This document shows, piece by piece, positions 1,241 to 45,543 of a DNA stretch of 49,873 bases. The notes beneath the pieces are model-generated. The model saw nothing but the letters and a program-made list of their open reading frames with translations, was not told where the DNA came from and ran no database searches. This stretch comes from a virus: the IMG/VR virus record IMGVR_UViG_3300031669_000044, positions 1-49,873 of that record; one strand, written 5' to 3'. The position numbers were made by a program, and so were the translations under genes. The first letter of the stretch is position 1; each line of letters begins with the position of its first letter.

Positions 1241-1541
1241 GAACGAACGGCTGAGAGCAGTTCTTGACTGGTTGCTTGAGTATGCGCGGTTCGCTCTTGA
1301 GTATGGCGTGGTACGCGGGGGATGGCGTGTCGATATGGAGGTAATCAGAGAACTGTGCGCTGACGCCCTCGCCGCAATGCCGGAGACGTGCGTGTGGTAT
1401 AGTCGTAAGGACTACACATACACGAGATCATGTGATGGGAGGCATACCGCATTAATGCCGGGTAGTTATTTGGATGGTTCGGATTTTCAAACAGACGAGT
1501 TATGCCCCGGCTGCGGGCACAAGATCGAGGTAAAAGAATGA
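1233..1541 (+). CDS. Small four-Cys phage protein, paralog 2
   Basis: The protein has 102 residues and is the second copy of the tandem pair. It has the same MSENERLR start, a variable helical middle, a CVWY segment, a further Cys (RSCDG) and a terminal CPGCGHKIEVKE. The four Cys could bind one zinc ion. It lies between the paralog (8-base overlap) and the nuclease gene (4-base ATGA overlap), so it is translated with the recombination genes. Role unknown; a nucleic-acid or protein adaptor role would be a guess. Confidence 0.8.
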   Translation: MSENERLRAVLDWLLEYARFALEYGVVRGGWRVDMEVIRELCADALAAMPETCVWYSRKDYTYTRSCDGRHTALMPGSYLDGSDFQTDELCPGCGHKIEVKE

Positions 1542-2491
1542 GCGTTCAGCGCGAACCCCTGCCCTCCGCTGGTATACGAAGGAAGGGATCTCATACCGGA
1601 TTTCACTTTTTCAACCTGCATCAGAACTGCGCGAGAAAGTTCTTTATCATGCACATGGCAAGGATCGTTCCGGCATTTACCGCACCGCCGTTGATTTTTG
1701 GTGGGGCGTTTCATGAAGGCAAGGCCGTGTTTTACACTACCAAGAGCATGCGAAAAGCTCTTGCATACGTGCGGAAGGACATCGCTCTGCGTAGGAAGGA
1801 ATACGAATACGATGACGCTTACGAAGCCGCACTGTATCGGTGCCCGATCCTGCTCGAACACTGGATCGACAAGCACGGGGAAAGCGATCTTCGCGTGTAC
1901 AAGATCATTGCGGTAGAGCACGAGATCAGGATGAAAGTTCCTGGGACCGAAGGATTCATCGTAACAATGCGCCCTGATGCTGTGGTGCAGCACAAGAAGA
2001 GCGGCGAATACTATATTATGGAAACCAAAACAAGCTCGTTCTCCATATCACTCACCGCTGATGGAGTGTACCTTGGAGACCAGGCCACGCAGTATACATG
2101 GGGAGTGCAGGAAAAGATGAAGCTTCCGGTATCAGGAGTGATCCCTGATATAGCTTATTGGAACAAGAACTCCGTGAAGGAAGAAAACATTTCCTGCGTT
2201 CGGTCGGATATCGTTTATCGAACCAAGCATGATGTGGATGAGTACAAGCGCAGCGTGGCATTGATCCTGAACGAGATCGCACAGAAAGCTGCTGCATTCC
2301 GTACTGGCAAGTACGAGCCGACTGATCTGTTCCCACGGAACACCTACTACTGTAATGCCTATATGAAGCCCTGCGAGTTCGCGAACATCTGCCGAGGCGG
2401 TATCACGATGAAGGGCCGGGCGCCCGAAGGATTCAAACGAGAGGCTGGAAGAAGGCCGCTCATCACAGATTATGTGGAGGCTGAAGGATGA
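1538..2491 (+). CDS. Cas4/RecB-like PD-(D/E)XK exonuclease with predicted Fe-S cluster
   Basis: The protein has 317 residues. The start at 1538 overlaps the previous stop (ATGA) and is preferred to an in-frame ATG at 1502. The RecB-family nuclease motifs are in order: His59 in GGAFHEG, Asp147 in RPDA, Glu162-x-Lys164 in METK, and Gln182 in DQATQY. One Cys near the N-terminus (Cys31) and three at the C-terminus (Cys272, Cys279, Cys285) match the split four-Cys Fe-S site of Cas4 and AddB. Phage proteins of this type process DNA ends for recombination. Its near neighbours are a Sak4-like ATPase and an SSB-like protein, which fits that role. No CRISPR array or cas1/cas2 was seen. Confidence 0.9.
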   Translation: MSVQREPLPSAGIRRKGSHTGFHFFNLHQNCARKFFIMHMARIVPAFTAPPLIFGGAFHEGKAVFYTTKSMRKALAYVRKDIALRRKEYEYDDAYEAALYRCPILLEHWIDKHGESDLRVYKIIAVEHEIRMKVPGTEGFIVTMRPDAVVQHKKSGEYYIMETKTSSFSISLTADGVYLGDQATQYTWGVQEKMKLPVSGVIPDIAYWNKNSVKEENISCVRSDIVYRTKHDVDEYKRSVALILNEIAQKAAAFRTGKYEPTDLFPRNTYYCNAYMKPCEFANICRGGITMKGRAPEGFKREAGRRPLITDYVEAEG

Positions 2492-2712
2492 ACAAAGAGG
2501 AGTTTTCTTGGACACCGCCGTGGGAGTTTGCACCGTATTGGGCGGCATATGCCGGATTTGATCAGTATGGTCAGGCGTTCTGGTTTGAGGAAACGCCGAA
2601 GTTCAAGGACAACGAGCTACAGTTCAATCACGAGGGTGGGGTTTGCCGACTTGGTACGGTCCCTCCGAAGATGCGTTCGAACTATCGGGGCAGCATTATC
2701 AGCCGGGTATAA
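2488..2712 (+). CDS. Small aromatic-rich phage protein
   Basis: The protein has 74 residues and opens with an ATGA overlap with the nuclease gene. The first 40 residues are rich in Trp, Tyr, Phe and Pro (SWTPPWEFAPYWAAYAG), then FDQYG and WFEETP. Small phage proteins with this PPW-YWA-DQYG-WFEE pattern are common next to recombination genes, but no function is known to me. It sits between the nuclease and the ATPase. Confidence 0.75.
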   Translation: MNKEEFSWTPPWEFAPYWAAYAGFDQYGQAFWFEETPKFKDNELQFNHEGGVCRLGTVPPKMRSNYRGSIISRV

Positions 2713-2723
2713 AGGAGAAAACT

Positions 2724-3548
2724 ATGTCAGATAGAAGAAGACGACGACTTGAAACAGCCAAAAGCGCGCCAGCAAAAGCGAAGGAAACTTCTTCGGTAGT
2801 TTCCTTTACCGACGACGAAGGGGCGAACTTCGTGCACATCTGCCTGAGTGGAAAACCCAAAACAGGCAAAACCACATTCATGGGTAGTGCACCGAACCCA
2901 TTTGTCATCAATACAGACAAGGGCCTGACCACCCTGAACGATCTTCATGTTCCATACATCACGATTGAGCGAGTTACGAAGGAGGATAACGATGCAACCG
3001 AAACCGCCTTTTTGAAGGTCAGAAGCATCATCATGCAGTTCAAGCGCGGGATAGGGCCGGTGGTTGATGCGCTGAACAAGGCCAAGTACGAGCCGAAAAC
3101 TCTTTGCATCGATAGCGGTAGCGCGCTCTCGGACCTGTTCGAAGTAGATGTGGTGCTTTTTCCTCCTGATGAAAAGGATCGCGAGGACACTCTGCAGATC
3201 CAGGACTACAACACGATTCAGCGCCGCATGTTTCAGATCCTCGATCTTGCCCGAGAGCTTCCGATGAACCTGATTGTTTCCTTCGGGCTTGATGTACTGC
3301 AGGACGACATGAATAGGATCATCGAGAACCCTTCAGCGACTGGCAACAAGCTTGGTCCGAAGATCCCGCACTTCTTCGATGAGGTGTATGTGACTTCCTT
3401 CGATAAGGAAGAAGAAAAGTTCATTATTTCTCCTTCACAAACTCGGAGGTTCACTCACGCGGGTTCCCGGTTCCATGTACCGTTCGATGACTATCCGAAC
3501 GCAACCTGGAAAACGTTCGAGAAGTGGTACAAGCGAGGTAAGAAATGA
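2724..3548 (+). CDS. Sak4-like RecA-fold ATPase (AAA_24 type)
   Basis: The protein has 274 residues from an ATG at 2724 with an AAAGGAG ribosome site 6 bases upstream; upstream in-frame starts lack such a site. Walker A is GKPKTGKT at residues 43-50. Walker B is the hydrophobic run ending in CIDS (Asp130). A single RecA-like ATPase domain preceded by a basic N-terminus is typical of the Sak4 family, which assists single-strand annealing recombination with an SSB partner. The neighbours (exonuclease upstream, SSB-like protein downstream) match that set. The final ATG/TGA overlaps the next gene by 4 bases. Confidence 0.88.
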   Translation: MSDRRRRRLETAKSAPAKAKETSSVVSFTDDEGANFVHICLSGKPKTGKTTFMGSAPNPFVINTDKGLTTLNDLHVPYITIERVTKEDNDATETAFLKVRSIIMQFKRGIGPVVDALNKAKYEPKTLCIDSGSALSDLFEVDVVLFPPDEKDREDTLQIQDYNTIQRRMFQILDLARELPMNLIVSFGLDVLQDDMNRIIENPSATGNKLGPKIPHFFDEVYVTSFDKEEEKFIISPSQTRRFTHAGSRFHVPFDDYPNATWKTFEKWYKRGKK

Positions 3549-3790
3549 TCAGTGTTCAGTTCGAAGGAGATTGGAACGACTTCTCAGCAAAGACCGCACT
3601 CGTTACCTTGGGAGGTCGTTGGGTCTGCGACGCAAGGATGATATTTGCAGCAGCGATGAAGAAGCAGAATGACGGTTGGGCAGTTACCATCCATACCGAC
3701 TATGGTCAAATGATCGTAGTCCGACGAGAAAAAAAGGCCGCTATGCGCATCTTCAAAATATTGCGCCGGGCGATAGGGTACTACAAATGA
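3545..3790 (+). CDS. Small basic phage protein, unknown
   Basis: The protein has 81 residues and starts at an ATGA overlap with the ATPase gene. It has an N-terminal beta-like stretch (ISVQFEGDW) and a basic C-terminal helix (RREKKAAMRIFKILRRAIGYYK). The basic tail could bind nucleic acid. It is overlapped in turn by the next gene. No family recognised. Confidence 0.75.
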   Translation: MISVQFEGDWNDFSAKTALVTLGGRWVCDARMIFAAAMKKQNDGWAVTIHTDYGQMIVVRREKKAAMRIFKILRRAIGYYK

Positions 3791-4026
3791 AATGCCCAGT
3801 TTGCATGACTCCGATGATTGCAGCGACTGAGGTGGAAAACCCCACCTGTGATTCCTGCCTCACCGTGCGAAGAGGAAAGCGCACAGGCGATCATGTGTGC
3901 CCCAAGTGTGACTACTACTTGTGCAGTGCATGTGCGAACATCCGCGATGAGCTGTCCGAAGAGGAAACCGATACCGATGATTCGATGTTTCCTGAAGACT
4001 TCTTTGATGAGGAGGTAGAAGAGTAA
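3787..4026 (+). CDS. Zinc-ribbon protein with acidic tail
   Basis: The protein has 79 residues and starts at an ATGA overlap. Cys pairs CPVC (residues 3-6), CDSC, CPKC and the C..C of LCSAC suggest two zinc sites in a RING- or ribbon-like arrangement. The last 30 residues are almost all Glu, Asp and Ser. The downstream gene starts in TAATG, sharing one base with this stop. Such proteins often act as adaptors; the role here is unknown. Confidence 0.8.
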   Translation: MKCPVCMTPMIAATEVENPTCDSCLTVRRGKRTGDHVCPKCDYYLCSACANIRDELSEEETDTDDSMFPEDFFDEEVEE

Positions 4027-4217
4027 TGCCGCAAGGACGTGCGGTTTTACGCGGAGAGTTCGGTGATGATGCGACGGCGTGGAACTTTCTTAAAGCGCTC
4101 GGCTTCACCGAATATCGATTTATCATCAGGGTGCCCGTTGGACGTACCTTAACCAAGAAAGAAAACGATGCCATCGAGTTCCTTGTAACTGAGTACGATT
4201 GGGAGGTAGAATGGTAG
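4026..4217 (+). CDS. Small phage protein, unknown
   Basis: The protein has 63 residues. Its ATG shares one base with the previous stop (TAATG), and its 3' end overlaps the peptidase gene by 7 bases. It is a mixed alpha/beta sequence with a likely strand RFIIRVPVG and an acidic C-terminus ending in WEVEW. No family recognised. Tight coupling on both sides is the main support. Confidence 0.7.
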   Translation: MPQGRAVLRGEFGDDATAWNFLKALGFTEYRFIIRVPVGRTLTKKENDAIEFLVTEYDWEVEW

Positions 4218-4927
4218 AAAGCGAAAATCTGATCACGTATAGCTTTTCAGCCGACAGCGATTACCACACGCAGCGCAACAACGTGTACATTCCGTTTGCT
4301 TCATGCGGAAGAACATCCATGGTTATGGCGCTTGTTCAGGCTGGATGGGGAGAGGACTTCCTGAAGGTGATGGAAGCAAACCATTTCGACGGGCAGGAAG
4401 AGGATTATCTCTACGAAGTGCTCCACACCGACGCCGCGAAGGATCATTTCAAAACCCTTCTTCAGGCTGGCCTCATCGATTCGTGGGCGCTCATGTACAG
4501 CTACGATGAGATCCATCTGATGCTCGATTGGGCGGTAAACGAGGTGCTTGGAAAAAGCGTTTCCCGGTTCAATCCGAATAGCTCGGATCAACAGGTAGTT
4601 ACCGCGTTATTCAACGGTACAGGGGTGGGGCTTGCCGGGCAGTTCAAGAACGCATCTGGAGAGACTCTCGAACACATCGTATCAGTAGGTGGAGCGGTAC
4701 TCACCGAGGCTCCATTCGAACTTTCCGGAGGAGGCCGGATGGTACAGGTACGGACGATTAAAAACTGGCTTATCGATGATCCGTATGGTAATCCATGGAC
4801 AGGCTACAGCGACATCCATGGAAACAACGTACCGTTCACCCCCGAGCAGTTTACTTCTTCGTTCATCAACCGTACGAATAGTCCGTATCTTTGGGCGCAC
4901 TTCATCAGACCAAAAGTACTCGTATGA
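4211..4927 (+). CDS. C39-like (papain-fold) cysteine peptidase
   Basis: The protein has 238 residues. The ATG at 4211 has GGGAGGT just upstream. Motifs fit the Peptidase_C39_2 group: an oxyanion-hole Gln21 ahead of the catalytic Cys32 in SCGRTSMVM, a His155 in EHIVSVGG, and Asp189/Asp190 in LIDDPYGNPW. There is no signal peptide or cell-wall-binding repeat. In phages such a fold could cleave peptidoglycan peptides or process a protein; the sequence does not decide. It is followed at once by a 46-residue membrane protein, a pairing that resembles lysin and holin. No other cell-wall hydrolase was recognised in the window. Confidence 0.75.
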   Translation: MVESENLITYSFSADSDYHTQRNNVYIPFASCGRTSMVMALVQAGWGEDFLKVMEANHFDGQEEDYLYEVLHTDAAKDHFKTLLQAGLIDSWALMYSYDEIHLMLDWAVNEVLGKSVSRFNPNSSDQQVVTALFNGTGVGLAGQFKNASGETLEHIVSVGGAVLTEAPFELSGGGRMVQVRTIKNWLIDDPYGNPWTGYSDIHGNNVPFTPEQFTSSFINRTNSPYLWAHFIRPKVLV

Positions 4928-5064
4928 ACGACACGATTATTCTTGGAGTGTTTATCGTAATCGGCGTGCTGGTATTTGTCCGGGTGCTGATTCCGATTCT
5001 ATTCTACACCATAAGCCTTCTCATGATCGTTTTTGCATCTTTGTCCAAGCGCAAGCGCAAATAG
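4924..5064 (+). CDS. Tiny membrane protein (46 aa), holin-like candidate
   Basis: An ATGA overlap with the peptidase gene opens a 46-codon frame ending in TAG at 5062. Residues 4 to about 40 are strongly hydrophobic with one Arg (FVRVLIP), giving one long or two short membrane segments. The tail is SKRKRK, a cytoplasmic positive cluster. Size, charge and position after a predicted peptidase suit a small holin or pinholin, but this is inference. Confidence 0.65.
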   Translation: MNDTIILGVFIVIGVLVFVRVLIPILFYTISLLMIVFASLSKRKRK

Positions 5065-5077
5065 TTCTGGTTTCAAA

Positions 5078-5094
5078 CAGGGTCGTTGACCCTG
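5078..5094 (+). promoter_or_regulatory. Leader hairpin with GTT loop before the SSB-like gene
   Basis: A perfect 7-bp stem with a three-base loop, CAGGGTC-GTT-GACCCTG, lies between the stop of the membrane-protein gene and the AGGAGG ribosome site of the next gene. There is no T-tract after it, so it is not a classic terminator. Hairpins with the same C-GTT-G top occur at 28820, 42807 and 43762. A role in RNA processing or stability is possible. Confidence 0.6.
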
Positions 5095-5124
5095 GGATAA
5101 TGTTTCTTTCAGGAGGCCATATAT

Positions 5125-5667
5125 ATGGCAAGGTCAAAAGCAAAGGTAGAGGATTCCGAGGGCGCAGCAGACATCACCACGATCAAGGCACCAGGCTTCT
5201 TCGCAAGCAAGGGCGCGCCGACTCGAACCGTAGTACCCGATGGTGGATACGTCTTTTCGATCAAGAGCGTGAAGGCGAGTCGCAGCAAGAACGATGATGG
5301 CTCGAACATTTCAGTTGCATTTGAGGTCATCGATGTGAAAGAGGACCGAAACGCAAATCAGATCGGCTCCCTCGTGTACGAGAACCTGTATTTCATGGAC
5401 TCGGATCACAAGGACTACGAGAAGAAGCTTTCGAATGGCGGCTACCAGCGGGACATCTCAATCAACAACGCGAGGGCCATTGTGAATGCAACAAAGATCA
5501 AGGTCAAGGAAGAGGACGACGAGAACATCCTGAAGGTCATACAGAAAACCGTTGGCAAAACGCTCTGTGCTACTGCGAAGAAGGTCGAGGACAAGCAGTC
5601 GGATTCCGGATTCGTCAATCGGTTTTCCCGGTGGTCCGAGGACAAGGACGCGGATAAGGATGCGTAA
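5125..5667 (+). CDS. SSB-like DNA-binding protein (DUF669/DUF2815-like)
   Basis: The protein has 180 residues with a strong AGGAGG site upstream. It has an OB-fold-like core: DGGYVFSIKSVKAS, then NISVAFEVIDVKEDR and LVYENLYFMDSD. The C-terminus is charged and acidic (SEDKDADKDA), as in SSB proteins that recruit partners through an acidic tail. Position with a Sak4-like ATPase, exonuclease and polymerase supports a single-strand DNA binding role. The exact Pfam family is uncertain. The hairpin leader at 5078 suggests special control of expression. Confidence 0.7.
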   Translation: MARSKAKVEDSEGAADITTIKAPGFFASKGAPTRTVVPDGGYVFSIKSVKASRSKNDDGSNISVAFEVIDVKEDRNANQIGSLVYENLYFMDSDHKDYEKKLSNGGYQRDISINNARAIVNATKIKVKEEDDENILKVIQKTVGKTLCATAKKVEDKQSDSGFVNRFSRWSEDKDADKDA

Positions 5668-6204
5668 ATGAAACTCAACGGCATTTTCTACCGGCCTTTG
5701 GTCGGTGGTCCGCAGCATGGCCTGTACGCCGTTGTGATCGAGTTGGGGGGAGCAGATGCTCCCTCCTTCTCCCTTACTGAAGTGGTGAACAAAGTCCATG
5801 AAGCGCAGACGAGTATCTGCGTTATCCAGGATCACGAGAACGAGAACGACGACGCTGAACTGGAAGAGCTTGTCACTGTACTGCTTGGCTCGATGATCCT
5901 TGCCGGAGACATCTATGGATATGCCCATCCGCGATGGGTTTCCAAGGTGCCCTATCTGATTACGCACATTACCGATGAGCCGTGGATGATGTTTCGATCC
6001 GATGAGATCCACTACCATCCGACTGATCCGGAAGTGTTGCATGTACCTGCGCTCGGCAAGGTAAACGAAGGCGGGGCCGCTAAAGTGCTCGTCCTTTCCA
6101 AGCGCCTTGATCCCCGGCAGGTATTCACCTTTCTTTCCCGTGTTACTCGTCCATGGCTTATCGTCACGCCCTCGCCTGTGGAGTACGTGATCAAGATGTT
6201 ATAG
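5668..6204 (+). CDS. Unknown phage protein (178 aa)
   Basis: The ATG directly follows the previous TAA, so the two are probably coupled. The sequence is globular with alternating strands and helices; it has a His/Asp/Glu-rich middle (SDEIHYHPTDPE) and ends in a basic helix. No catalytic signature was recognised. It lies between the SSB-like gene and a run of membrane-associated small genes. Confidence 0.75.
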   Translation: MKLNGIFYRPLVGGPQHGLYAVVIELGGADAPSFSLTEVVNKVHEAQTSICVIQDHENENDDAELEELVTVLLGSMILAGDIYGYAHPRWVSKVPYLITHITDEPWMMFRSDEIHYHPTDPEVLHVPALGKVNEGGAAKVLVLSKRLDPRQVFTFLSRVTRPWLIVTPSPVEYVIKML

Positions 6205-7119: not shown

Positions 7120-9915
7120 ATGCTACGTATAGCACGAAAGCTATCTGACTGCAAGAACTGCGCTCTGAATGGACAGACTAAAGTTCGGGGCATTTGCAGT
7201 ATCTCAAAGCCCGTCCTCGCCATATGTGGCGAGGCTCCGGACAGAGAAGAAGCTGAGGAAGGAACGCCGTTTGTTGGAGCGGCCGGCACCTGGCAGAGGA
7301 ACATTCTTTATGCCGTGGACCTTACGCCTAAGAGCGTGTACTTCTTCAATGCGATTAACTGCCGCCCTCCGGGGGGTAAAATAGACAACTTTGAAGGAGA
7401 AGATGCGTTTGAAAAATGCGCCCCTGGTTTTCAGGAAGAACTTGCCACACTCGTAAAGCTCGGGGTAACAATGTTTGTTCCAATAGGAACTACAGCGCTT
7501 AATCGGTTTGGCATTCCCGGCGGGATCATGAAGAACCGAGGATCGATCTTCGTTCGTTATGTGGATGAATCAGGATCGATCTGGGAATCAAGCATGAACC
7601 GTCGTACCGGGAAAACGCGCACGCAAATCATTGTTATTCCTACTTATCAGCCCTCATTCATAATGAAGGGCAACGTTAAAGAAGAGCCAACTTGGTCAAA
7701 TGACTGGAAGAAAATCAAGCGTCTTGTGAAAGGCGGCTACACCCCACCGAAAGAAGACTTCATCCTGTTCCCTACTGTTTCGCAGGTAACAGCCTTTGCT
7801 GAGCGCGTGGTGCGGGACAAAACCGAACTCGGGTGTGATATCGAGGCTTCCAGCTTGAATACGATGAGAGCTGAAATCTACGTCCTGAGCTTCGCCGACA
7901 GCAACACGCATACGATCTCGATTCCCTTCTATAAGAAGGGCAAGCAGCGCTACTGGTCCAAGGAGGACGAACCTGCTGTAATTCGCGCAGTACGCCTGAT
8001 CCTTGCCAAGTGCCCGATCATCTTTCAGAACGCTCTGTACGACTTTCGTATTCTTGAATATAACGGATTCCCAGTAGGCAACATTGCTCATGATACCATG
8101 TTGCTTCACCACGCGATCCATCCAGAGCTTCCACACAACCTTGGCTACATTACATCGGTTTATGGAATCACTCCGTACTGGAAGGATCTCGTACTCAACA
8201 GCGAAAGCTCAATGATGGGCTATGAAGACGCGGAGTTCCGTACGTACAACTGCCGGGATAGCGTGACACTAAAGCAGAATACCAAGCCCATGCTTGCGGA
8301 TTTGAAAAGCTCAGGTACTGCTTGGATCTATGAAAACATCTCAATGCCGCTCATTCGTCCGATCGCACAGATGATGGACAACGGCATGGGGTTTAATCAG
8401 AACATCTTTAATGCCGCGATGAAGACGCTGAAGAAAAGCCACACAAGAATGCATAAAGCCATTTTTCGAGACTACCCGTTATCTGAGCGTCTGAACCTGC
8501 ATTCATCACAGGATCTTGCATTCATTTTCTACGGACTACGCCCGGCAAAGTTTCGTACTGCGTTAAAGAAGCTTGATGAGTATGAGGAGAATCCAAGAAA
8601 GAAAAAGGACAGTAAGGCTTTTCGCGAGCTTACAGCGCTCAAGCAAACGTTTGCGGCTGATCCCCCGTTTATCCTTCCGCGAACGATGGGTAAGATCCCG
8701 ACGACTGATACCGGGCTTCCTGCGGTAGCTGAAGATGATATTGTATCATTACAGATCGCGGCAAGTAACAGGCTCCGGGACATCGCGCGGCTGCGTAGGA
8801 TTACACCAGACCACGCAACTGAAAAGGCACGACTCGAACTGTTGCTTGCCTTCATCAAGGACCATCGCACACTTACTCAGATCGACAAGGTGATCTCTAC
8901 ATACGGGTTCTTCCCGGTTGAAGCTGATGGTAGAGTGCACTTCCAGTTCAAGATCCACGGAACAAACACTGGAAGGCTATCCAGTGGAGGAAAGCAGAAG
9001 AAAGGCTCAGGTTACGAGAAGCAGTTTCCCGGCAATGCACAGAACATTCCTATGAAGGGCCCAGGAAAAATCATCCGGAAAGCCTTCGTAGCTGATGCGG
9101 GAAATCTTCTTGTTGAGCTTGACTACTCGAATCTGGAATTGCGCGTCATCGCGTATCTTTCTAAAGACGAAATGCTTATTGCAATCTTTGCGGAGGGTCT
9201 GAACATTCATAGCGAGAACTGCCGCATCCTGTTCAAAATCGACCCATCACATCCATTATGGACCATCGCTCGAAGAGCGGCGAAAGTGTATATCTTCGGA
9301 CGTAACTATGGTGGAACTCTTCGTGGAGTGTTCAGAAAGGTTGCAAAAGAAGTACCTGAACTCGGCCTGACCTTTGATCGATTCTGTGAAGCAGATACCG
9401 AGTATCGAAGGGCGCATCCGAAATACGCAAAGTGGTACGATGGAATAATTAAAGAAGTTGAAAAAACACGGACGATCACGAATGCATTCGGACGCAAGCG
9501 TTATCTTCTCGGGCCTCCAAGCAGTATCACTCGTGAGGGGCTAAACACTCCAGTACAGGGCACTGCGGCAGATATCGTCTCACAGCGCGCATTGATCCCT
9601 CTACCAAAAGTCAGTCTTCCAACTTGGCGCATGATCCTCACCACACATGACAGTGTAATGTTCGAAATCCCCGAACAGGATCTGTTGTTGTTCTTAGATA
9701 AAGCCAAATCTCAAATGCAGGCTCCGATCGAAGTTAATGGGTACAAGGTAAGTTTCCCGGTGGACGCGAAAATTGGCCGGAATTGGTACGACATGGTAGA
9801 GGAAGAAAAATGGTTCAAAAAACAGACGAAATCAGGGAAGACGGGTCCGTCATCGTCCACTACAACAGTGGAGTCACCCAGGAGTTTACGAAGGAGGAGT
9901 ACAAGGGTCTCCTAA
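7120..9915 (+). CDS. UDG-domain / DNA polymerase I (family A) fusion
   Basis: The protein has 931 residues. Residues 1 to about 205 form a family 4-type uracil-DNA glycosylase domain: four Fe-S Cys (11, 14, 81, 100), motif 1 GEAPD..EEGTPFVG (37-53) and an INCRPP segment. In motif 2 the usual His is Gln177 (TYQPSF), so excision activity may be reduced or lost. The 3'-5' exonuclease site follows: Asp240/Glu242, Asp308, and Tyr376 with Asp380. Polymerase motif A is DYSNLELR (Asp668), motif B runs from Arg718 through Lys722, and motif C is HDS (843-845) instead of HDE. There is no 5' nuclease domain. The replicative polymerase of phage SPO1 is also described with a UDG-like N-terminus. The last 36 codons extend past the usual end and overlap the next gene. 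Confidence 0.93.
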   Translation: MLRIARKLSDCKNCALNGQTKVRGICSISKPVLAICGEAPDREEAEEGTPFVGAAGTWQRNILYAVDLTPKSVYFFNAINCRPPGGKIDNFEGEDAFEKCAPGFQEELATLVKLGVTMFVPIGTTALNRFGIPGGIMKNRGSIFVRYVDESGSIWESSMNRRTGKTRTQIIVIPTYQPSFIMKGNVKEEPTWSNDWKKIKRLVKGGYTPPKEDFILFPTVSQVTAFAERVVRDKTELGCDIEASSLNTMRAEIYVLSFADSNTHTISIPFYKKGKQRYWSKEDEPAVIRAVRLILAKCPIIFQNALYDFRILEYNGFPVGNIAHDTMLLHHAIHPELPHNLGYITSVYGITPYWKDLVLNSESSMMGYEDAEFRTYNCRDSVTLKQNTKPMLADLKSSGTAWIYENISMPLIRPIAQMMDNGMGFNQNIFNAAMKTLKKSHTRMHKAIFRDYPLSERLNLHSSQDLAFIFYGLRPAKFRTALKKLDEYEENPRKKKDSKAFRELTALKQTFAADPPFILPRTMGKIPTTDTGLPAVAEDDIVSLQIAASNRLRDIARLRRITPDHATEKARLELLLAFIKDHRTLTQIDKVISTYGFFPVEADGRVHFQFKIHGTNTGRLSSGGKQKKGSGYEKQFPGNAQNIPMKGPGKIIRKAFVADAGNLLVELDYSNLELRVIAYLSKDEMLIAIFAEGLNIHSENCRILFKIDPSHPLWTIARRAAKVYIFGRNYGGTLRGVFRKVAKEVPELGLTFDRFCEADTEYRRAHPKYAKWYDGIIKEVEKTRTITNAFGRKRYLLGPPSSITREGLNTPVQGTAADIVSQRALIPLPKVSLPTWRMILTTHDSVMFEIPEQDLLLFLDKAKSQMQAPIEVNGYKVSFPVDAKIGRNWYDMVEEEKWFKKQTKSGKTGPSSSTTTVESPRSLRRRSTRVS

Positions 9916-10016
9916 TTGCGCGCTCCATGCGGGAGAAAAGGATACGCCCGCAGAACGAGCGTGTTCGAGGCAAAGAGTATGCGGCCCAATTACCAGTCCA
10001 TCATGTAGTACAGTGA
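9810..10016 (+). CDS. Small basic protein overlapping the polymerase 3' end
   Basis: The protein has 68 residues from an ATG at 9810 (GAGGAAG upstream). It runs in the +2 frame over the last 106 bases of the polymerase gene and 101 bases beyond. It begins with a strand-like DGSVIVHYNSG and then a basic helix (RSMREKRIRPQNERVR). Codons in the overlap look as normal in this frame as in the polymerase frame. Function unknown. Confidence 0.65.
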   Translation: MVQKTDEIREDGSVIVHYNSGVTQEFTKEEYKGLLIARSMREKRIRPQNERVRGKEYAAQLPVHHVVQ

Positions 10017-10023
10017 GGGTCAT

Positions 10024-11493
10024 ATGCAACAGCGTGGACCAAAACAGAAGGTGCAGGAAATCATTCGTCCCACATGGGTCGATGACTGCCCGATCCCGTA
10101 CGATGAATCACTCGATCCAGATCCATTCTGGATCAAAGGCCCACATGCGTATTGCGACCCGGCTGATGAACACATGCCAAAAAGCAAGGGCTTCATTACC
10201 GACATGATCTATACTCTTCGAGGAACCGAGTCACCTACGCTATTCGTAGAATGGACTGCGCTTTCTCTGATCTCCTCAGTGGTCAAGCGCGAGGTAAGTA
10301 TCAAGTGGTTCTACAATCCACTATATACCCACCTGTACGTTATCCTCGCCGGTACCGCGGGCATCGTAAAGAAGAGTAGTGTGATCTCCTTCGGCGCAAG
10401 CATCCTCGATGAAATTGACCGGGAGATCCGCAACGATGTGATGAGAGCGAAAAAACAGCTTAACATCATGCGCGACAAAGGAACTCCTGAAGCACTCATC
10501 GAAGCACTGAATGCCGGAAAGATCCGCGTGCGAGACGCTACGGGTGAGGCAATGAGGAACGCGGATGGAAAGGCGTTGTTTGTTCCTGCAACAAATGAGA
10601 TCCTGATTTTGCTTTCCGAGATGTCAGTCATGGTAAACAAACAGTCCTATAATGAGTCGCTGATTCAAATCCTGATGAGACTCTATGATCCGGAAGGCAC
10701 CTTCGAATCAGCCACGAAAGGTGGAGGAAAGATCAAGCTAAAAAAGTTGCACACGAACCTGCTCGCAGCAACGACCGCGGAAGGATTCAAAGATTCGATT
10801 CCGAACGCAGCCCTCGGTGATGGATTTATCTCCCGATGCGTGATCGTGTTTCAGGAGAAAACTACCAGACGGTTTTTTCCTCCACGCATCGTAAAAAGTG
10901 CGCCTGATGTGGATGAACTACGCAAACGGCTTGCATGGATAGCAGAAAACGCCCAAGGAGAGTTCTCATTTGATGAAGAGGCTACTGCCTATGCTTGGGA
11001 ATGGTACAACAGATTTCGGGATAACATCGAGCGAGACATTTCAAGTGCCGGGTCCAAGAGCCGGATGGATGTGATCTTGCTCAAGGTTGCAGTGCTCTTG
11101 AAAATCCAGGCATATGACCTTGCTTCGAACGTAGTGGATATCCGCTACATTAAGGACGCAGGCAGGCTTCTTCGCTATACCTATTCGCTCTCACCGATGC
11201 TCATTCAAGACATCCGCAACGAGGGCTTCATGAAGTACATAACGAAAATTGAAAACTACATCAAAGCCAAGGGTGAGGCAAAGCGCCAGCAAACTCTACA
11301 AAATACCGGTGTCCGCGCGGATGATCTTACCGCTGCAATCGAATATCTGTACAACAACAATCGCGTAAGCATATGGCGAGCATCGAATGGATCTGGAAAG
11401 CTCGAAGAGCAGGACTACGCTACCCGAGCAGGCGATGAAATCTACAAATACGAGGTGCCCGAATGGGAGTCGCAAGAGGAAGACCAGGAATAG
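10024..11493 (+). CDS. DUF3987-like phage helicase/ATPase
   Basis: The protein has 489 residues and follows the previous gene by 7 bases. A degenerate P-loop, G110-TAGIVKKSS, has two Lys where a standard Walker A has GK. ILLSEMS (around residues 200-206) resembles Walker B with its Glu, NLLAATTAEGF a sensor strand, and DGFISRCVIVF an arginine-finger region. This order is typical of DUF3987-type phage replication proteins, which are thought to act as helicase or primase-helicase next to a phage Pol A. A primase domain is not evident. Its end overlaps the HTH gene by 31 bases. Confidence 0.8.
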   Translation: MQQRGPKQKVQEIIRPTWVDDCPIPYDESLDPDPFWIKGPHAYCDPADEHMPKSKGFITDMIYTLRGTESPTLFVEWTALSLISSVVKREVSIKWFYNPLYTHLYVILAGTAGIVKKSSVISFGASILDEIDREIRNDVMRAKKQLNIMRDKGTPEALIEALNAGKIRVRDATGEAMRNADGKALFVPATNEILILLSEMSVMVNKQSYNESLIQILMRLYDPEGTFESATKGGGKIKLKKLHTNLLAATTAEGFKDSIPNAALGDGFISRCVIVFQEKTTRRFFPPRIVKSAPDVDELRKRLAWIAENAQGEFSFDEEATAYAWEWYNRFRDNIERDISSAGSKSRMDVILLKVAVLLKIQAYDLASNVVDIRYIKDAGRLLRYTYSLSPMLIQDIRNEGFMKYITKIENYIKAKGEAKRQQTLQNTGVRADDLTAAIEYLYNNNRVSIWRASNGSGKLEEQDYATRAGDEIYKYEVPEWESQEEDQE

Positions 11494-12071
11494 ATCGAAC
11501 AATTCCGCAGGCAAAGCTGCTGAAAGCCTACGAGGTGTACGGGTCTGCCCGAGCTGCCGCGGACGCCATCGGAATTGATCATACGGCAATGAGCAGGTTC
11601 TTGAAACGGCTTGGCATCGAGCCTGCTCGGGAGCGTAAGAAACCAGTGCGCCTGATCCAGGCTGAGCGCAAACGAGGGCAGTTTGCCAAGTGGCTTATCG
11701 AGCACCCGAACATTCGTCTTCCTTCAAGCATGAAGGAGATCGCTGTGATTACCGGGTGTTCCTACTACGCAGTTTCTTGCCACTACTACCGGCAACGAGA
11801 GCTGGTTCGGAAACGCCTTGCAGCTCTGTCAAACATCGGTCCTCTTGGCGCGCTTCTACAAACAGCGCCTGATGAAAGCGGCCATATGGATGTGATCAAC
11901 ACCCGGTCTTTCACCAGATACTTCTACGACTTTGATCCGTTTTCTCTTGAAATATGGATCATGGCCGACACAAAGGATCAGAAGAACGTTCGCTTCCCGG
12001 TACCCGATCTTGACCTGTTTGAGCAGGCCATCAATCAGTTAGTCGAGCGATCGACAAGGAGAAAAGAATGA
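11463..12071 (+). CDS. DNA-binding protein with two HTH-like segments
   Basis: The protein has 202 residues. Residues about 17-45 (KAYEVYGSARAAADAIGIDHTAMSRFLKRLGI) form a Fis/transposase-like helix-turn-helix. A second HTH-like stretch is near 90-118 (MKEIAVITGCSYYAVSCHYYRQ). The C-terminal 80 residues have no recognised motif. It could regulate transcription or load replication proteins. It overlaps the helicase gene by 31 bases and the next gene by 4. Confidence 0.75.
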   Translation: MGVARGRPGIDRTIPQAKLLKAYEVYGSARAAADAIGIDHTAMSRFLKRLGIEPARERKKPVRLIQAERKRGQFAKWLIEHPNIRLPSSMKEIAVITGCSYYAVSCHYYRQRELVRKRLAALSNIGPLGALLQTAPDESGHMDVINTRSFTRYFYDFDPFSLEIWIMADTKDQKNVRFPVPDLDLFEQAINQLVERSTRRKE

Positions 12072-12540: not shown

Positions 12541-12626
12541 AAAAGACGTTCACGATCCCACTCGTTGATATCAACGTAACGCTATTGAAACTTCCACGGG
12601 CCATCTTTCCGAGCTGGAATAGTTGA
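12537..12626 (+). CDS. Possible 29-codon ORF at the convergent junction
   Basis: An ATGA overlap with the previous stop opens a 29-residue frame (MKKTFTIPLVDINVTLLKL and 10 more), ending in TGA at 12624. Its last 45 bases overlap the 3' end of the leftward 1714-residue gene. Coupling supports translation; the small size and antisense overlap weaken the case. Confidence 0.35.
   Translation: MKKTFTIPLVDINVTLLKLPRAIFPSWNS
12563..12576. repeat. Perfect 14-bp palindrome at the convergent junction
   Basis: CGTTGATATCAACG is self-complementary and lies 6 bases from the stop codon of the leftward structural operon. It has no loop or T-tract, so it suits a protein-binding site more than a terminator. 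No clear intrinsic terminator was found between the two converging operons. Confidence 0.45.
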
Positions 12627-15600
12627 AAGGGCGAGCCAAGTGTTCCAGCTATCACCATCCAGTGCGTAGTGGTAGGCTTTCTTCAGGTAATTGTACTGGA
12701 TGGTTCCCGGCATGAGCCCGGGATAGCCGAACTTGGCTGCGCCTGTTTTCTCCGAAACGCTTATCGGAAGAAATGCCCGCTCTACCCGAGCGCGCGCTTG
12801 GGCGGACTCCTGTGAGCTACCAAACATGGTCATGATATCCACGGCAGTCTGAAACATTGGGCCACCAGAGAACAACCCAGGAAGGCCCGGAATGAAGTCT
12901 GTTGCGTTTATTCCAAGGGCTGCAAATGAGCCGTAAAGCGCGCCGTTTATCGCAAGGAACCGACCAACGAACGCAGCCTTCTTTGCCGGGCTCCCGTACC
13001 GAATCGCGTTAAAGATGTTTGCCCGATAGCCTGCGGCATAGGTCCCGTACTGCCCGAACATTTTCCCGAGGAAGCTGTGGTTGATCATCGGGCTTTCACT
13101 CGCACGGTAGCCGAACATGGTGTCATGCGTCACCTGAGCTGCAAACACGTCGCGGCCTGCGGTGAGTGCTACATCATCTCCTTTCGTGATACCCTGCTGG
13201 AAGAAATCGAACGATCTGTTGGCAATGTCCGGACTCATCATATCAAGGCCCGAGATGTCCAGAAACTGCTTCTTCTGATTAATCGCGCCCTTCTTCCATG
13301 CACTCACAGCATCTTCCCATCGTAGCGTGGCTGTAGCGTAGGCGATCGCACGAGTGTACTCGTCGCTATTTTTGAACATCTTCATGGACTGCTCAGTCAT
13401 CTTTCCGATGAACGTGTCCGCGGCGAGCAGCTTTGTTACAACCGGCGCCTGACCTGAAACAACCCCGAGATGCATCAGGTAGTCGTAGAACTCAGGCCCG
13501 GCCTGATCCACGTACTTTACTGCTTTCGCTGTCCAGTCAAGGCCGAACCGCGGGGCGAGCGTCACCCATACCTGGAAGTTGTTGCGCATTGCAAGCCACC
13601 ATCTCCAGCCCATCGAGCCGAAGTAGTTTAAGCTGAACATGGTCTTTGGGAGGTTCTGCCCGCTTTCGATGATCGCAGCTTTTCTGGATTCCCATCCCAA
13701 CTTGCCCAAACGATCCTTTCCCATGAGCTTCGAGATGATCGGACTTTCGGTAAGATTGGTCATGAAAAGCTTTCCTGCATGTTCCAACCGTGCCTGAGTT
13801 TCAGGTTTGAAGGTGCCCATGACAAGCTCACGATACCGGTTCATCCTGTCAAACGCGAACGCATCAATCACGCCGAGCTTCTTCTGGTCCATCATAGTTT
13901 TATGCAGATCCTTCCAGGTCTGCTGAAGGTACAGCTTCTTGTAGCCCTGATTGATGTATTTGGCCGCAACCGAATATGCATCATCATCCGCGGCAAAGCT
14001 GAGCAGTTCTTCAAGCCGGTCGTTCTCAGCCCAGAACTTGATCTCTTTTGGCACTCCATCATGGAACACGTAAGAGGTCAGCTCCTCGGCGTTTGTTGCC
14101 GCAGTCACAAGTGCGCTGTTCTCGTAGTTATCCGCATAGCGCCTGATGCGCGGCATGTAGTTCTCGATCAGCTTCCGTGGATCAATATTGAACTCAGTTC
14201 CGAGCGCATCATAAAGAGCACGAAGGTTATCCTTGATTCGGTTTTCAGCCTCGGTCAGTGGGCCAAACTCTTCCAGAGCTGCTGCAAGTTCATCCGGACT
14301 CTGAGCACCCATATGATAGAACAAAGCGCGCCTTCGGTCCTTTTTTAGCATCTTCCCGGTTTCATGGAACACCCGATCAAGAGCCATCGTGCTGGCATGA
14401 CTCTTCCCGGTAGCAAAGCGCATCGCGTTCTCAAGCTCCCGATACTTCCCAAGTAGAACCGTGTTTCCGGTTGTTCTTGCGTAGCCTTCCATCCATGTTG
14501 TTTGATTCGTGGTGTATGCTTTCAGCACGGTACGCGCACCCATTGCTCGGACTTCCCCGCCGATCTCAGGAGGAACCTGCGGAGGAAGCCCAGGCTTTGG
14601 GATCTGGTGTTCTTTTAGCATCGATCGGTATTCCAGTACTGACTCCTCGACTTCCCGGCTGATATTCGGATCAAGCCCGGCAAGCACGTCAGGCACGCCG
14701 TCAGTGGCATCCGGATAGCTCTTGAGTATCTTGTAGACTCCTTCACGGTTTCTTGCCACGTTGAGCGTCTGACCATCGTTCAGGGTCCAAACGCCGTTAT
14801 CAAAGCGCATCTTTAGCCCTTTCTTCTCAGCCAGGGCCTCCACATTCACAAGATCCTTCCAGCCACCTTCGGCAAACTTTCGTGCTTCAGCAAGGCTGCC
14901 GAACTCCATGGTACTGTTGATCGCAGGTAGGGTCACCCGAATCCGTCCATCAGGCTGCGCGGCAAGATCCCCGTACCGGGTCGAACCGAGCTTGCGCATC
15001 TTCAGCACATAGTTCTTGTCCTCGAAGTTATTGAAGAACTCCAACAACTGTTTCCGAGAACCAAGAGCGCTTCGGCCTGTAACATTGAAGCTCACCGCGC
15101 TGTCGCTAATCTCAGCCACTTTAGGTGCAAAGCGCGCGTCGAGTTTCGTTGGAACAAAGTTGAGCCGTTCCATGATATCCTGCGGCGTTCTGCCAGTAAT
15201 TCCCTTTCCGAGGCCCGGACCCTTTACAGCAAGCCCACCATCACGCAGCTCGATGAGCCTATAGCCTTGCTGAGCAAGTTCTGCTTTTAGCCCACCCACA
15301 TCCATGGAGCTTTTCACCAGGCTGTTCAGCACTTCTTCCAGATTCGAAAACTCCTGAACTACACCGCCCGGCAACGATACAGAGATACCCCCGGGTACGC
15401 TCCCGATCGTCCCGTGCATCTCATCAATGACGCTCCGAATCCACGACTCCCGTGCGATCGGATTAACGAGTTCGGGAACATACCGGGTAATGCTCTGTTG
15501 ATAGATATTCTCGAATACTGAGCCAGGCTTCGCGCGCGCTGCGCCTCTTGCTTTGCCCTTTGTCTGCGCGATATTCTGATACTCATCCATGAGTTCCGAA

Positions 15601-17726
15601 ATGAACTTCTTCTGCTCGCTTGCTGTGCGGATCGCCTTTGGTACACTAATTTCAATCTTGTTCCCATTGATTCGTGCAAATACGGCTCCTTCCTGTGCGG
15701 CTTCCTGTGCGCCCTTGACTTTCACAGACAGCTCTGAAGTATCTACTCCAAGTTCCTTCAGATACATCTGAGATAGCTTCTGCAATTTGCCCGTGTTCAC
15801 ATCTCCGGTAAACGACGCGAGCGTATCAACCATCAACTGATCGTTTCTCGTGAGAGTCTTTGCTCCGGCACTTACTTTGAACTGCTGTTCAGCATACGCT
15901 TGAGCACGCACCGCATTCGGGGTTGCGCTATGCAGTACATTTTCCGGAGATCCTACTCCACCAGTGCTCGGATTCACATTCGCCGATACGAGCTTTGCCT
16001 GATCAGGATAAAGCAAATGCACCGATCCATCCGGATTAACGAAGTGATCGTATCCTGCTTTTTGTAGAACAATGTCTCTTACCTGTTCTTGCGGTACATT
16101 CGGGTTTTGTATCTTCGCGGCAAGCGCGCTTGCAGCACCTACTTCTTGAGCCGGAGCTTCGTTCGTAAGAGCGATGATCGCATTCTTTTCTCCACCCGGC
16201 ATCACATCAACCGGAGTTAGATTGTTCCGAATGTCCTTTGCTGCAAAACGAGTAGAATCCGCAGTGAACTCAAGTACCTTGGTCTGCGCTCCATCGGTTC
16301 CTTTGGCAAGAGCGTCTGCTTCAGCGCGAGAAACATAGGGCCGATCCTTTATACCGATAAACCCAACACGCTCAGCCGGGGAGTAGAGCTTCTTCAGTGT
16401 TTCCTCTACTGTCTGAATGTTCGCCAGGGCCGGGTCTGCAGCCTTAACCGTATCAACCACACCATCAGGAAGATCCGCAACCTTCTGTGCAGCAAGCGCA
16501 GCAAGTTGCCTGTTTGCAGTCACGAGATCCTGATGAATCGTCTGTACGGCGCTCTTTGCCTCGTCGATCGTAGTGATTCGATAAGTGCCATCATCGAGTG
16601 CCGCAAACATCGCCCCACTTCCGGAGGCTGCAAGAGTTGCCTGTTCGATCGGATATGCATCAAGATTATCAAGGTGCGCCGCAGCAAGCCGGGCATTCTT
16701 TCGCATCTCAAAGCTATCCTGAATGAACGATGGAGCTTCTTTGAGTACCGCGGGGTCAATCGTACCGTTTTCAATTCCCTGAAATACTTTCTGCAAGTCT
16801 TCCGGACTCTTAATGTTCTTCCAGTTTCCCGCGCCACGCTTGAAGAGCCCTCGAACCGCACCGGATAGAAACGGCATCGCCACGGTAGCAGCCCCTCCGA
16901 TGAGATAATCAAGTGCCGCCCATTCTCCGAACCTTTTTCCAAACTCGGTTGCAGTCGTCTTTGAAAGATCGTCTCCGTTGCGATAATAGTCGCTTAGCGT
17001 AAGCGCCGCGTCTTCAACAGTGGTTCTACCAAGAAACGGTAACGCTACGCGGAACATCCAGCGGATTGCGCTGGTTGATTTCTTGGCTGCCGCTACTGCC
17101 CCAGCCGCATCGAGTGTTTTACCTAACGGATTTCCAAGAAAGGCCGCGGTCACCGCAACATCTCCGATAACACCGGCCATCTTATCAACCGCACGCTCCA
17201 TGGTCCATGCGCTGGCGTTATTGATGTCCTTTGATGCAAAGGTCATGTAGTCGAGGAACTTCTGTGCATCCTTTCCAAGAATAAGTTTTCCGGTAAGAGG
17301 GTACTTCTGTATGATGCTGTTCTGATCGTTGTTCATCAACTGAGTCAGACCGCTCCAGTCCACGAACTGCTGTGTAAAACGCGCCACACCAGATGCCCGA
17401 GTAAGCTCCATGTGACTCACACCGGACATGATCTGATTGATCGTATCCTGTGCCTTTGGATCTCCGCTTTTCGCTGCTTCCCGAGCCTGATTGAAGCTTG
17501 GTATGACCGCGTTGGCCCAGTCACGAAAAGTAGGATCAGCGAAGGCAGGCATCTTGTCCTGAAGGATAGCTGTGAATGCTTTCTGCTTTGCCATGAGATC
17601 AAGTTGCTGGAATGCTGGATCTTGATTCAGCTCATCGCTGAGAAGACCACTGATAGTGCTTTGCTGTTGTTGATAGCTGAGCGTTTGAAACCCCGGATCA
17701 TTGTACAACCCCGTCCAATCGGCCAT
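12582..17726 (-). CDS. Large internal virion / ejection protein (1714 aa)
   Basis: The last gene of the leftward virion operon. It encodes 1714 residues beginning MADWTGLYND. The sequence is helical and Ala/Gln-rich with several hydrophobic stretches (around residues 185-225, 275-290 and near 1530-1570). No lytic transglycosylase or peptidase motif was found. Size and position after two smaller Gln/Ala-rich genes match the giant ejected core proteins of podoviruses (T7 gp16-like), which help move DNA across the envelope. A tape measure is less likely because no tail-tube or tail-tip genes accompany it. Confidence 0.75.
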   Translation of the reverse strand: MADWTGLYNDPGFQTLSYQQQQSTISGLLSDELNQDPAFQQLDLMAKQKAFTAILQDKMPAFADPTFRDWANAVIPSFNQAREAAKSGDPKAQDTINQIMSGVSHMELTRASGVARFTQQFVDWSGLTQLMNNDQNSIIQKYPLTGKLILGKDAQKFLDYMTFASKDINNASAWTMERAVDKMAGVIGDVAVTAAFLGNPLGKTLDAAGAVAAAKKSTSAIRWMFRVALPFLGRTTVEDAALTLSDYYRNGDDLSKTTATEFGKRFGEWAALDYLIGGAATVAMPFLSGAVRGLFKRGAGNWKNIKSPEDLQKVFQGIENGTIDPAVLKEAPSFIQDSFEMRKNARLAAAHLDNLDAYPIEQATLAASGSGAMFAALDDGTYRITTIDEAKSAVQTIHQDLVTANRQLAALAAQKVADLPDGVVDTVKAADPALANIQTVEETLKKLYSPAERVGFIGIKDRPYVSRAEADALAKGTDGAQTKVLEFTADSTRFAAKDIRNNLTPVDVMPGGEKNAIIALTNEAPAQEVGAASALAAKIQNPNVPQEQVRDIVLQKAGYDHFVNPDGSVHLLYPDQAKLVSANVNPSTGGVGSPENVLHSATPNAVRAQAYAEQQFKVSAGAKTLTRNDQLMVDTLASFTGDVNTGKLQKLSQMYLKELGVDTSELSVKVKGAQEAAQEGAVFARINGNKIEISVPKAIRTASEQKKFISELMDEYQNIAQTKGKARGAARAKPGSVFENIYQQSITRYVPELVNPIARESWIRSVIDEMHGTIGSVPGGISVSLPGGVVQEFSNLEEVLNSLVKSSMDVGGLKAELAQQGYRLIELRDGGLAVKGPGLGKGITGRTPQDIMERLNFVPTKLDARFAPKVAEISDSAVSFNVTGRSALGSRKQLLEFFNNFEDKNYVLKMRKLGSTRYGDLAAQPDGRIRVTLPAINSTMEFGSLAEARKFAEGGWKDLVNVEALAEKKGLKMRFDNGVWTLNDGQTLNVARNREGVYKILKSYPDATDGVPDVLAGLDPNISREVEESVLEYRSMLKEHQIPKPGLPPQVPPEIGGEVRAMGARTVLKAYTTNQTTWMEGYARTTGNTVLLGKYRELENAMRFATGKSHASTMALDRVFHETGKMLKKDRRRALFYHMGAQSPDELAAALEEFGPLTEAENRIKDNLRALYDALGTEFNIDPRKLIENYMPRIRRYADNYENSALVTAATNAEELTSYVFHDGVPKEIKFWAENDRLEELLSFAADDDAYSVAAKYINQGYKKLYLQQTWKDLHKTMMDQKKLGVIDAFAFDRMNRYRELVMGTFKPETQARLEHAGKLFMTNLTESPIISKLMGKDRLGKLGWESRKAAIIESGQNLPKTMFSLNYFGSMGWRWWLAMRNNFQVWVTLAPRFGLDWTAKAVKYVDQAGPEFYDYLMHLGVVSGQAPVVTKLLAADTFIGKMTEQSMKMFKNSDEYTRAIAYATATLRWEDAVSAWKKGAINQKKQFLDISGLDMMSPDIANRSFDFFQQGITKGDDVALTAGRDVFAAQVTHDTMFGYRASESPMINHSFLGKMFGQYGTYAAGYRANIFNAIRYGSPAKKAAFVGRFLAINGALYGSFAALGINATDFIPGLPGLFSGGPMFQTAVDIMTMFGSSQESAQARARVERAFLPISVSEKTGAAKFGYPGLMPGTIQYNYLKKAYHYALDGDSWNTWLALSTIPARKDGPWKFQ

Positions 17727-41050: not shown

Positions 41051-41323
41051 ATGAACGACAAAACTTATGCCACATGCGAACTTTGCGAACAGGAGATGAA
41101 ACCCGGTACGCCGTGCACCTATACGCATTTTAAGCTTAAAAACGGTACCATCATTGAAAAGATCATGACCGATGAGCCAGTTTGCCCGGACTGCAACGCT
41201 CCTATGGGTTCTCCCCATCATCCCGGTTGCGACAATGAACGCTGCCCGGTGTGCGGTGGACAGGCCATAGGCTGTCCGTGTCTTGACGGCGTGCACGATC
41301 TAAAGAAGGTACCGCGTACATGA
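41051..41323 (+). CDS. Small multi-Cys zinc protein (90 aa)
   Basis: AAAGGAAC precedes the ATG. Cys pairs: CELC (9-12), CPDC, CPVC and CPC, plus His residues in PHHPGC, enough for two or more zinc sites. HPGCDNERCPVCGGQAIGC is a frequent motif in phage and bacterial small proteins. It is coupled to the methyltransferase-like gene by ATGA. Confidence 0.75.
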   Translation: MNDKTYATCELCEQEMKPGTPCTYTHFKLKNGTIIEKIMTDEPVCPDCNAPMGSPHHPGCDNERCPVCGGQAIGCPCLDGVHDLKKVPRT

Positions 41324-41919
41324 AAATCCTTATAGCTTGTGAATCTTCCGGGATCGTCCGGGACGCATTCCGCGCATATGGCCATGATGCATGGTCATGC
41401 GATCTAAAGGCTACCGAGCGGCCCGGACCGCACATTCAAGGCGATGTGCTCGCGTACCTGAACGATGGATGGGACATGATGATCGCGCACCCGCCTTGCA
41501 CCCATCTATCGGTTAGCGGAGCGCACCTATTTGCGGCCAAACGTGCCGATGGTCGCCAGCAATCAGCGATCGGGTTTTTCATGCTCCTTGCTGGCGCAAA
41601 AATCAAATACAAGGCGGTCGAAAACCCGGTCTCGATCATGTCTACGCTATGGCGTAAACCCGATCAAATCATCCAACCGTGGATGTTCGGTCATCCGGAA
41701 AGTAAGAAAACTTGCTTGTGGCTTACGAACCTGCCGAAGCTTGTTCCAACCGATGTGCTCACGCTGCCCGAATGCGGCTACTGGGCAAATCAAACCCCAT
41801 CCCATCAGAACAAACTCGGACCGTCCGCAGAGCGCGCTACGATTCGATCCCGGACCTACTGGAACATTGCTCTTGCCATGGCCGAACAGTGGACTAAATA
41901 TTTAGCAGAGGTAGCTTAA
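41320..41919 (+). CDS. C5-cytosine methyltransferase-like protein (short form)
   Basis: The protein has 199 residues. The N-terminal ACESSG.VR.AF (residues 6-17) resembles the SAM-binding motif of Dcm-type enzymes. HPPC (57-60) carries the catalytic-type Cys60, and VENP (100-103) matches the Glu of motif VI. It lacks a target-recognition domain and is half the usual length. Phage proteins of this shape are usually annotated as DNA methylase; activity is uncertain. Possible role is protection from restriction. Confidence 0.75.
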   Translation: MKILIACESSGIVRDAFRAYGHDAWSCDLKATERPGPHIQGDVLAYLNDGWDMMIAHPPCTHLSVSGAHLFAAKRADGRQQSAIGFFMLLAGAKIKYKAVENPVSIMSTLWRKPDQIIQPWMFGHPESKKTCLWLTNLPKLVPTDVLTLPECGYWANQTPSHQNKLGPSAERATIRSRTYWNIALAMAEQWTKYLAEVA

Positions 41920-45273: not shown

Positions 45274-45543
45274 ATGAAAAAGCTTACCTGTGATTTGTGC
45301 AAGACCGATAGTGCGCCGTTTGAGGATGTGTACGAACATCGTCCGGAAGGCTGGCGTATACTACAGTTCGAAATCTCGGGTAAAAGCTACCCGAAGAAGA
45401 TGAAATCCTATGATCTGTGCCCGGCTTGTGTTGGGCGCTACGGCTTGAAGGAAGAACCCGTTGCGGCCACCCTTGGGGACAAAATATTCGATCTGATCGA
45501 GGAAATCGCGACCGAAGCGGCGATAAACGCTATAAACCGCTGA
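45274..45543 (+). CDS. Small zinc-type protein (89 aa)
   Basis: TATAGGAG precedes the ATG. CDLC (6-9) and CPAC (about 49-52) flank a short beta region, making one treble-clef-like zinc site; the remainder is an acidic helix. Unknown role. Confidence 0.7.
   Translation: MKKLTCDLCKTDSAPFEDVYEHRPEGWRILQFEISGKSYPKKMKSYDLCPACVGRYGLKEEPVAATLGDKIFDLIEEIATEAAINAINR

Follow-up and report, generated by a model that had tools for sequence, protein, structure and literature searches.

The polymerase gene described here is proposed to encode the proofreading family A enzyme that replicates the DNA of a tailed virus, and in this enzyme an N-terminal, Fe-S-containing UDG-like domain would no longer excise uracil, or would do so only residually, and would have been retained as a non-catalytic DNA-binding module. 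The gene lies in the window, meaning here the whole stretch of 49,873 nt that was analysed (positions 1 to 49,873 of the IMG/VR virus record IMGVR_UViG_3300031669_000044). We consider it somewhat probable, arguing in part by analogy, that the domain, non-excising or residually excising, acts as a DNA-binding or base-scanning accessory to the polymerase. In the manner of vaccinia D4 with its own polymerase, it would hold on to or scan template DNA alongside the exonuclease and polymerase domains; a flipped-out base may still fit into it. The proposal takes its footing from the domain architecture, the predicted fold, the replacement of the residues equivalent to H155, N89 and G44 of Tth UDGa, the repeated loss of the same His among fused homologues, and purifying selection on the domain in the related pair L020/L021; this evidence suggests loss of excision, binding to DNA and a role in scanning or, by analogy with D4, in processivity.

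The open reading frame (7120-9915, + strand; 931 amino acids, ATG start) specifies in one chain a UDG-like domain, a 3'-5' exonuclease and a family A DNA polymerase, which bears out the preliminary description of a UDG fused to a proofreading Pol I. The family 4-like UDG domain occupies residues 1-208 (7120-7743, +), with a Pfam UDG superfamily match (PF03167) over residues 30-189 at E 3.7e-16, over the cut-off; its scores against the two NCBIfam type-4 UDG profiles, 60.3 bits for a cut-off of 250 and 56.2 bits for a cut-off of 125.3, are both below threshold. The exonuclease, at about residues 213-400 (7756-8319, +), gives a weak Pfam match just under the cut-off (residues 230-345, E 5.3e-4), and its acidic residues are all present: D240 and E242 in Exo I (DIE, 240-242), D308 in Exo II (N304/D308) and D380 in Exo III (YNCRD, 376-380). 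The polymerase domain, at about residues 575-893 (8842-9798, +), matches Pfam DNA_pol_A over residues 575-891 (E 7e-48) and has both catalytic Asp residues of a family A polymerase, with motif A as DYSNLELR (Asp668), motif B as R718-K722-Y730 and motif C as HDS (843-845; H843-D844). That motif C reads HDS rather than HDE had been singled out earlier; the reading is real but carries no special meaning, HDS being ordinary among phage PolA proteins and found also in SPO1L1, LysYB1, MelJY34, ctfzr933, L019, L020, L031 and L032.

The predicted structure agrees with this assignment. AlphaFold2, supplied with an alignment of the window protein and its viral relatives, modelled residues 1-214 with a pLDDT of 93.7 and a pTM of 0.90, and comparison with Tth UDGa (1ui0) gave Z 23.1 and 2.5 A over 179 residues, that is, a predicted family 4 UDG fold; this was the check that had been suggested beforehand, and its outcome supports the assignment. 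The full-length model (pLDDT 87.7, pTM 0.83) retrieved, among the matches listed, Pol I-type polymerases only, the large fragments of Pol I scoring Z 35. At its C-terminus the polymerase has 26 residues (9835-9912) that are predicted to be disordered and are missing in relatives, and the frame 9783-10016 holds a plausible ORF of 77 amino acids in another frame, overlapping the 3' end of the gene; the polymerase gene may actually end before 9915. Some relatives show peculiarities of their own in the polymerase part. In a vir526-like clade (L005, L023, L027, L028, L029 and L035) motif A is DYVNLEAQL against the more general DYSxLELR, with loss of the usual Arg, and motif B is FFFGG or DFFGN. Two of its members, L028 (about 8416-11946) and L029 (about 1335-5228), carry a polymerase insert of some 283 amino acids with intein-like ends, at one shared site between SGRLA and VHN|C ahead of motif A.

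The scaffold of the UDG domain appears to be preserved. Cys11 and Cys14 (CKNC; 7150-7161, +), Cys81 and Cys100 (7417-7419, +) fall at the putative Fe-S ligand positions and do not vary across the aligned family, so that all four Cys are present as previously noted. In the phmmer alignment to 1ui0, in which window residue i corresponds to Tth residue i+3 through motifs 1 and 3, the residues that contact uracil are likewise kept, E41, E47, F54 and N80 of Tth being represented by Glu38, Glu44, Phe51 and Asn77, while the equivalent of Tth position 42 is Ala, a common residue there. Within motif 1 (GEAPDREEAEEGTPFVG, residues 37-53; 7228-7278, +) a conserved site is nevertheless altered, Asp41 standing at Tth Gly44 to give GEAPD versus GE(A/G)PG. 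The preliminary description had placed both Asp41 and Ala45 at conserved positions; Asp41 stands, but Ala45 has been discarded as a meaningful change, the site of Tth Asp48 varying even among members with an intact His.

The two positions that act on the catalytic step are both replaced. In motif 2 (TYQPSFIMK, residues 175-183; 7642-7668, +) the window has QPSFIMK against HPxxLLR of family 4, and Gln177 (CAG, 7648-7650), as earlier reported, aligns with the catalytic His155 of Tth UDGa. A second change affecting the catalytic step had been overlooked: in the motif 3 region (NAINCRPPGG, residues 77-86; 7348-7377, +) Gly86 takes the place of N89, the water-positioning Asn, an assignment counted from the invariant Cys81-Arg-Pro-Pro, one alignment showing another letter in the N89 column owing to a gap. 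In Tth UDGa the H155S mutation reduces k2 more than a thousandfold with little effect on Km, and for N89A the drop in k2 is about 9-fold according to the published table or almost 6-fold according to the text (PMC5387724), so both residues act on the catalytic step. A count of residues 1-212 found no His, the first in the protein being residue 264, and an intact catalytic His is thus not to be placed elsewhere in the domain. With both equivalents replaced and no other His available, it is well supported from the aligned motifs that uracil excision would be lost or only residual, in agreement with the earlier suggestion that the domain does not remove uracil; base binding would still be possible. 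UDG families 2 and 6 excise without a motif 2 His (PMC5387724), and the Gln enzyme could therefore be slow rather than dead. Assignment to the UdgX type, which binds uracil-DNA covalently, was considered and rejected: the domain has neither a His nor the KRRIH loop, and reads GEAPD rather than GEQPG.

The Gln codon CAG is one base away from His (CAC or CAT), and in a single record one transversion would restore it, so that a sequencing or assembly error has to be weighed. Against this, two further codons have changed independently, giving Asp41 and Gly86 (GGT, two bases from Asn), and loss of His to N, D or S recurs in unrelated contigs, two of which, at 90% identity, agree on Asn. An error at this position is hardly credible.

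The nearest annotated record is virus vir526 (BK063670), with 31.7% identity over 95% and a host given as Methanomicrobiales; its gene order, exonuclease-Sak4-polymerase-primase, is that of the window. Relatives in IMG/VR comprise L019 (41%), L020-L029 and L031-L037, and none nearer than L019 was found among viral contigs; one scan of host genome contigs returned a distant Streptococcus polymerase as the sole match. Because GEAPG, the motif 3 Asn and the motif 2 His are all present in both L019 and vir526, the changes in the window would most simply be read as derived. Most relatives in its virus family keep the motif 2 His and probably benefit from excision by their fused domain. Loss of His is nonetheless not confined to the window. 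It is absent from 7 of 25 fused sequences, being replaced by Q in the window, by N in L020/L021, L037 and a Desulfofustis phage, by D in L035 and by S in L041, and the Fe-S Cys are kept in all of these except the Desulfofustis phage. On a tree of the exonuclease-polymerase part of the fused proteins these amount to five or six independent losses, with six changes on the tree and at least five forced by well-supported branches. Among stand-alone family 4 UDGs of Bacillota, a baseline of 71 sequences that is biased toward high-scoring matches, the motif 2 His is kept in 69, as is the last Gly of motif 1.

The UDG part varies in other ways among these viruses. L031 has an insertion of about 16 amino acids in the motif 1 loop (GEAPGEDESNGEEQFQWEDRRAFLDRPKGPF, about 5570-5670), its His being kept. 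In a large second group of viral contigs (L039-L109) the polymerase is split into two genes, for a UDG-plus-exonuclease protein of about 350 amino acids and a polymerase protein of about 500. The Fe-S cysteines are missing from this group, in which nearly every member retains the His and the usual form of motif 1 is GEAWG or GEAYG.

It might be supposed that Asp41 and Gln177 cooperate in a glycosylase that is still active but altered in chemistry or specificity, acting for example on another damaged or 5-substituted pyrimidine. Families 2 and 6 provide the precedent for work without the motif 2 His, and Gly44 is lost in all seven His-less fused sequences as against 4 of the 18 His-intact ones. 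Two sister Bacillota genomes moreover encode stand-alone UDG-like proteins, L161 (G022:C31:57475-58029) and L158 (G142:C79:24062-24601), in which LEAPD is combined with TYQPK or TYEPK; this pairing of Asp44 with Gln or Glu155 matches that of the window, so that Asp44-Gln155 may be a working pair; three further genomes of the order have intact versions. However, N89 is also lost, position 3 of motif 1 is without the water-activating Asp or Asn of families 1 and 2, and the association of Gly44 with His does not survive correction for ancestry: the raw Fisher test gives p 7e-4, but a sign test on pairs taken from the tree gives only p 0.06-0.25, and the co-loss was rejected as a significant link. 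An altered glycosylase is accordingly rather improbable.

Selection could be measured in L020/L021, the sole testable His-less pair, the nearest relative of the window itself being only 41% identical. In these two sequences (90% identical, both with Asn and with a strongly altered motif 1, GDYPL), dN/dS is 0.067 for the UDG domain (bootstrap 0.032-0.125), 0.204 for the polymerase (0.143-0.281) and 0.118 for the exonuclease; their His-less UDG domain is constrained at least as strongly as their polymerase. For the window, UDG identity to His-intact relatives exceeds polymerase identity by 1.2 points, and the offset is the same (+1.2) for the intact L019, from which the window domain does not appear to be decayed. 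Repeated loss of His, mostly on a conserved Fe-S scaffold, together with strong purifying selection where it can be tested, says that in some fused polymerases the UDG domain matters for something besides excision. The contrary view, that the domain is a relic drifting once unused, can point to the three altered motif positions and to L035 and L037, in which UDG identity to intact relatives falls below that of the polymerase (-6.7 and -7.4), so that the picture is not uniform. But the reading frame runs uninterrupted through 931 codons, the predicted fold is of high confidence with all Cys kept, the window domain is not fast-evolving, and the low dN/dS of L020/L021 belongs to a His-less pair; a relic is very improbable.

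A more striking version of the non-excising module would be a reader of uracil or deaminated bases, with a pocket that captures uracil in the template and makes the polymerase slow down or pause, the family A equivalent of the archaeal family B read-ahead pocket. Retention of Glu38, Glu44, Phe51 and Asn77 is consistent with this, as are the nearly unchanged Km of Tth UDGa H155S (PMC5387724), the sensing of template uracil by archaeal PolB (PMC8596578) and the methanogen host of the close relative vir526. Asp41, on the other hand, lies beside the pocket at the position of Y66 in UNG and may block it, and in other His-less lineages the pocket is altered further (E41 to D, N or P; E47 to D, A or M), so that a shared uracil-reading function is not indicated. 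Such a reader is possible, but to judge from the residues concerned a general DNA-binding or structural role would fit equally well, and we rate uracil reading as unlikely. The wider generalisation is doubtful in turn: that in phage family A polymerases fused family 4 UDGs have repeatedly become readers or scanners of bases that do not excise, recognising uracil (or some other base) in front of the fork and linking this to polymerisation or proofreading, as a counterpart of archaeal PolB read-ahead.

The preliminary description had also proposed, from the occurrence of similar fusions in phages with unusual bases, that the DNA of this phage may be modified or contain uracil. Such fusions do occur in SPO1-type phages and in Brevundimonas phage StAshley, but the argument does not carry over to the lineage of the window: searches that found their targets in control genomes matched no dUTPase, ThyA-type or Thy1 thymidylate synthase either in the window record or in 14 relatives. 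The window record is, however, linear, has no end repeats and may be incomplete, so that absence of a gene is no proof. Uracil-containing or hypermodified virion DNA thus finds no support in these 15 virus records, and the sole modification gene noticed in the window is an ordinary DNA methyltransferase (41320-41919; phrog_757, E 2e-66), to which L039, L040 and L042 have relatives at 45% identity. In StAshley (L011) the UDG-PolA fusion adjoins genes for 7-cyano-7-deazaguanine synthesis and has largely intact UDG motifs (GESPG and VHPAF).

The genes around the polymerase are conserved in the family. Upstream lie an exonuclease (1502-2491, +; phrog_1218, E 3.9e-17), with homologues in the loci of 12 relatives, and a Sak4-like ATPase (AAA_24; 2643-3548, +), also found in relatives' loci; directly 3' of the polymerase is a primase/DUF3987 gene (10024-11493, +; phrog_14296, E 2.4e-28), present in 62 related loci. 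Adjoining these replication genes is a gene (12582-17726, -) for a protein of 1714 amino acids that has homologues in 18 fetched loci and gave no Pfam or PHROG match. A protein of 400 amino acids encoded further away (45417-46619) contains a domain like MptE (6-hydroxymethylpterin diphosphokinase; E 7e-15), which is surprising in a virus, and has a weak homologue in L036.

The UDG-PolA fusion has itself been known for years: it has been described for Pseudomonas phage PaBG (gp205) and its group (PMC7412058), PHROG 17 covers both UDG and polymerase parts, the UDG fold is present in many BFVD phage polymerases, and PDB entries of family 4-like UDGs bear the title 'Phage SPO1 DNA polymerase-related protein'. 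PDB 9qhs, released in March 2026 and known here by its title and the phiLo gene, is the family A polymerase of Thermus phage phiLo with a UDG part. A literature search found no experimental statement of the role of the UDG part in such fusions. What is new is that His loss recurs among the fused homologues and that selection keeps the domain in one measurable lineage; the role of the UDG part becomes testable with one protein and standard assays.

With the family 4 UDGs (Tth UDGa 1ui0, S. tokodaii 4zbx and T. maritima TM0511) the window domain shares the fold (Z about 23 over 180 residues), the four Fe-S Cys and the equivalents of E41, E47, F54 and N80, but it differs in the replacement of H155 by Q, N89 by G and G44 by D, in its sub-cut-off NCBIfam scores and in its fusion to a polymerase. 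The polymerases of vir526, PaBG (gp205), the SPO1-type phages and phiLo have the same order of UDG, 3'-5' exonuclease and family A polymerase in a single chain; unlike the window, vir526 and phiLo have an unaltered GEAPG and motif 2 His (NHPSF in phiLo), while in SPO1L1 the His is present without the Fe-S Cys. The His-less relatives L020/L021, L035, L037 and L041 and the Desulfofustis phage resemble the window in having a fused domain with neither the His nor Gly44, but differ in the replacing residue, in their separate origin on the tree and in a more altered pocket. The archaeal family B read-ahead pocket is alike in idea, coupling base sensing to polymerisation (PMC8596578), but would be an analogue only, its fold and polymerase family being unrelated. 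A functional parallel may be vaccinia D4, a UNG that binds undamaged DNA (PMC4450493) and that is needed for replication as a protein, its catalytic site being dispensable (PMC2630940). D4 is a family 1 UDG, a separate subunit joined via A20, and still an active enzyme; but in both a UDG fold would serve a viral replicative polymerase, and the fused domain described here would give a prokaryotic-virus parallel to D4.
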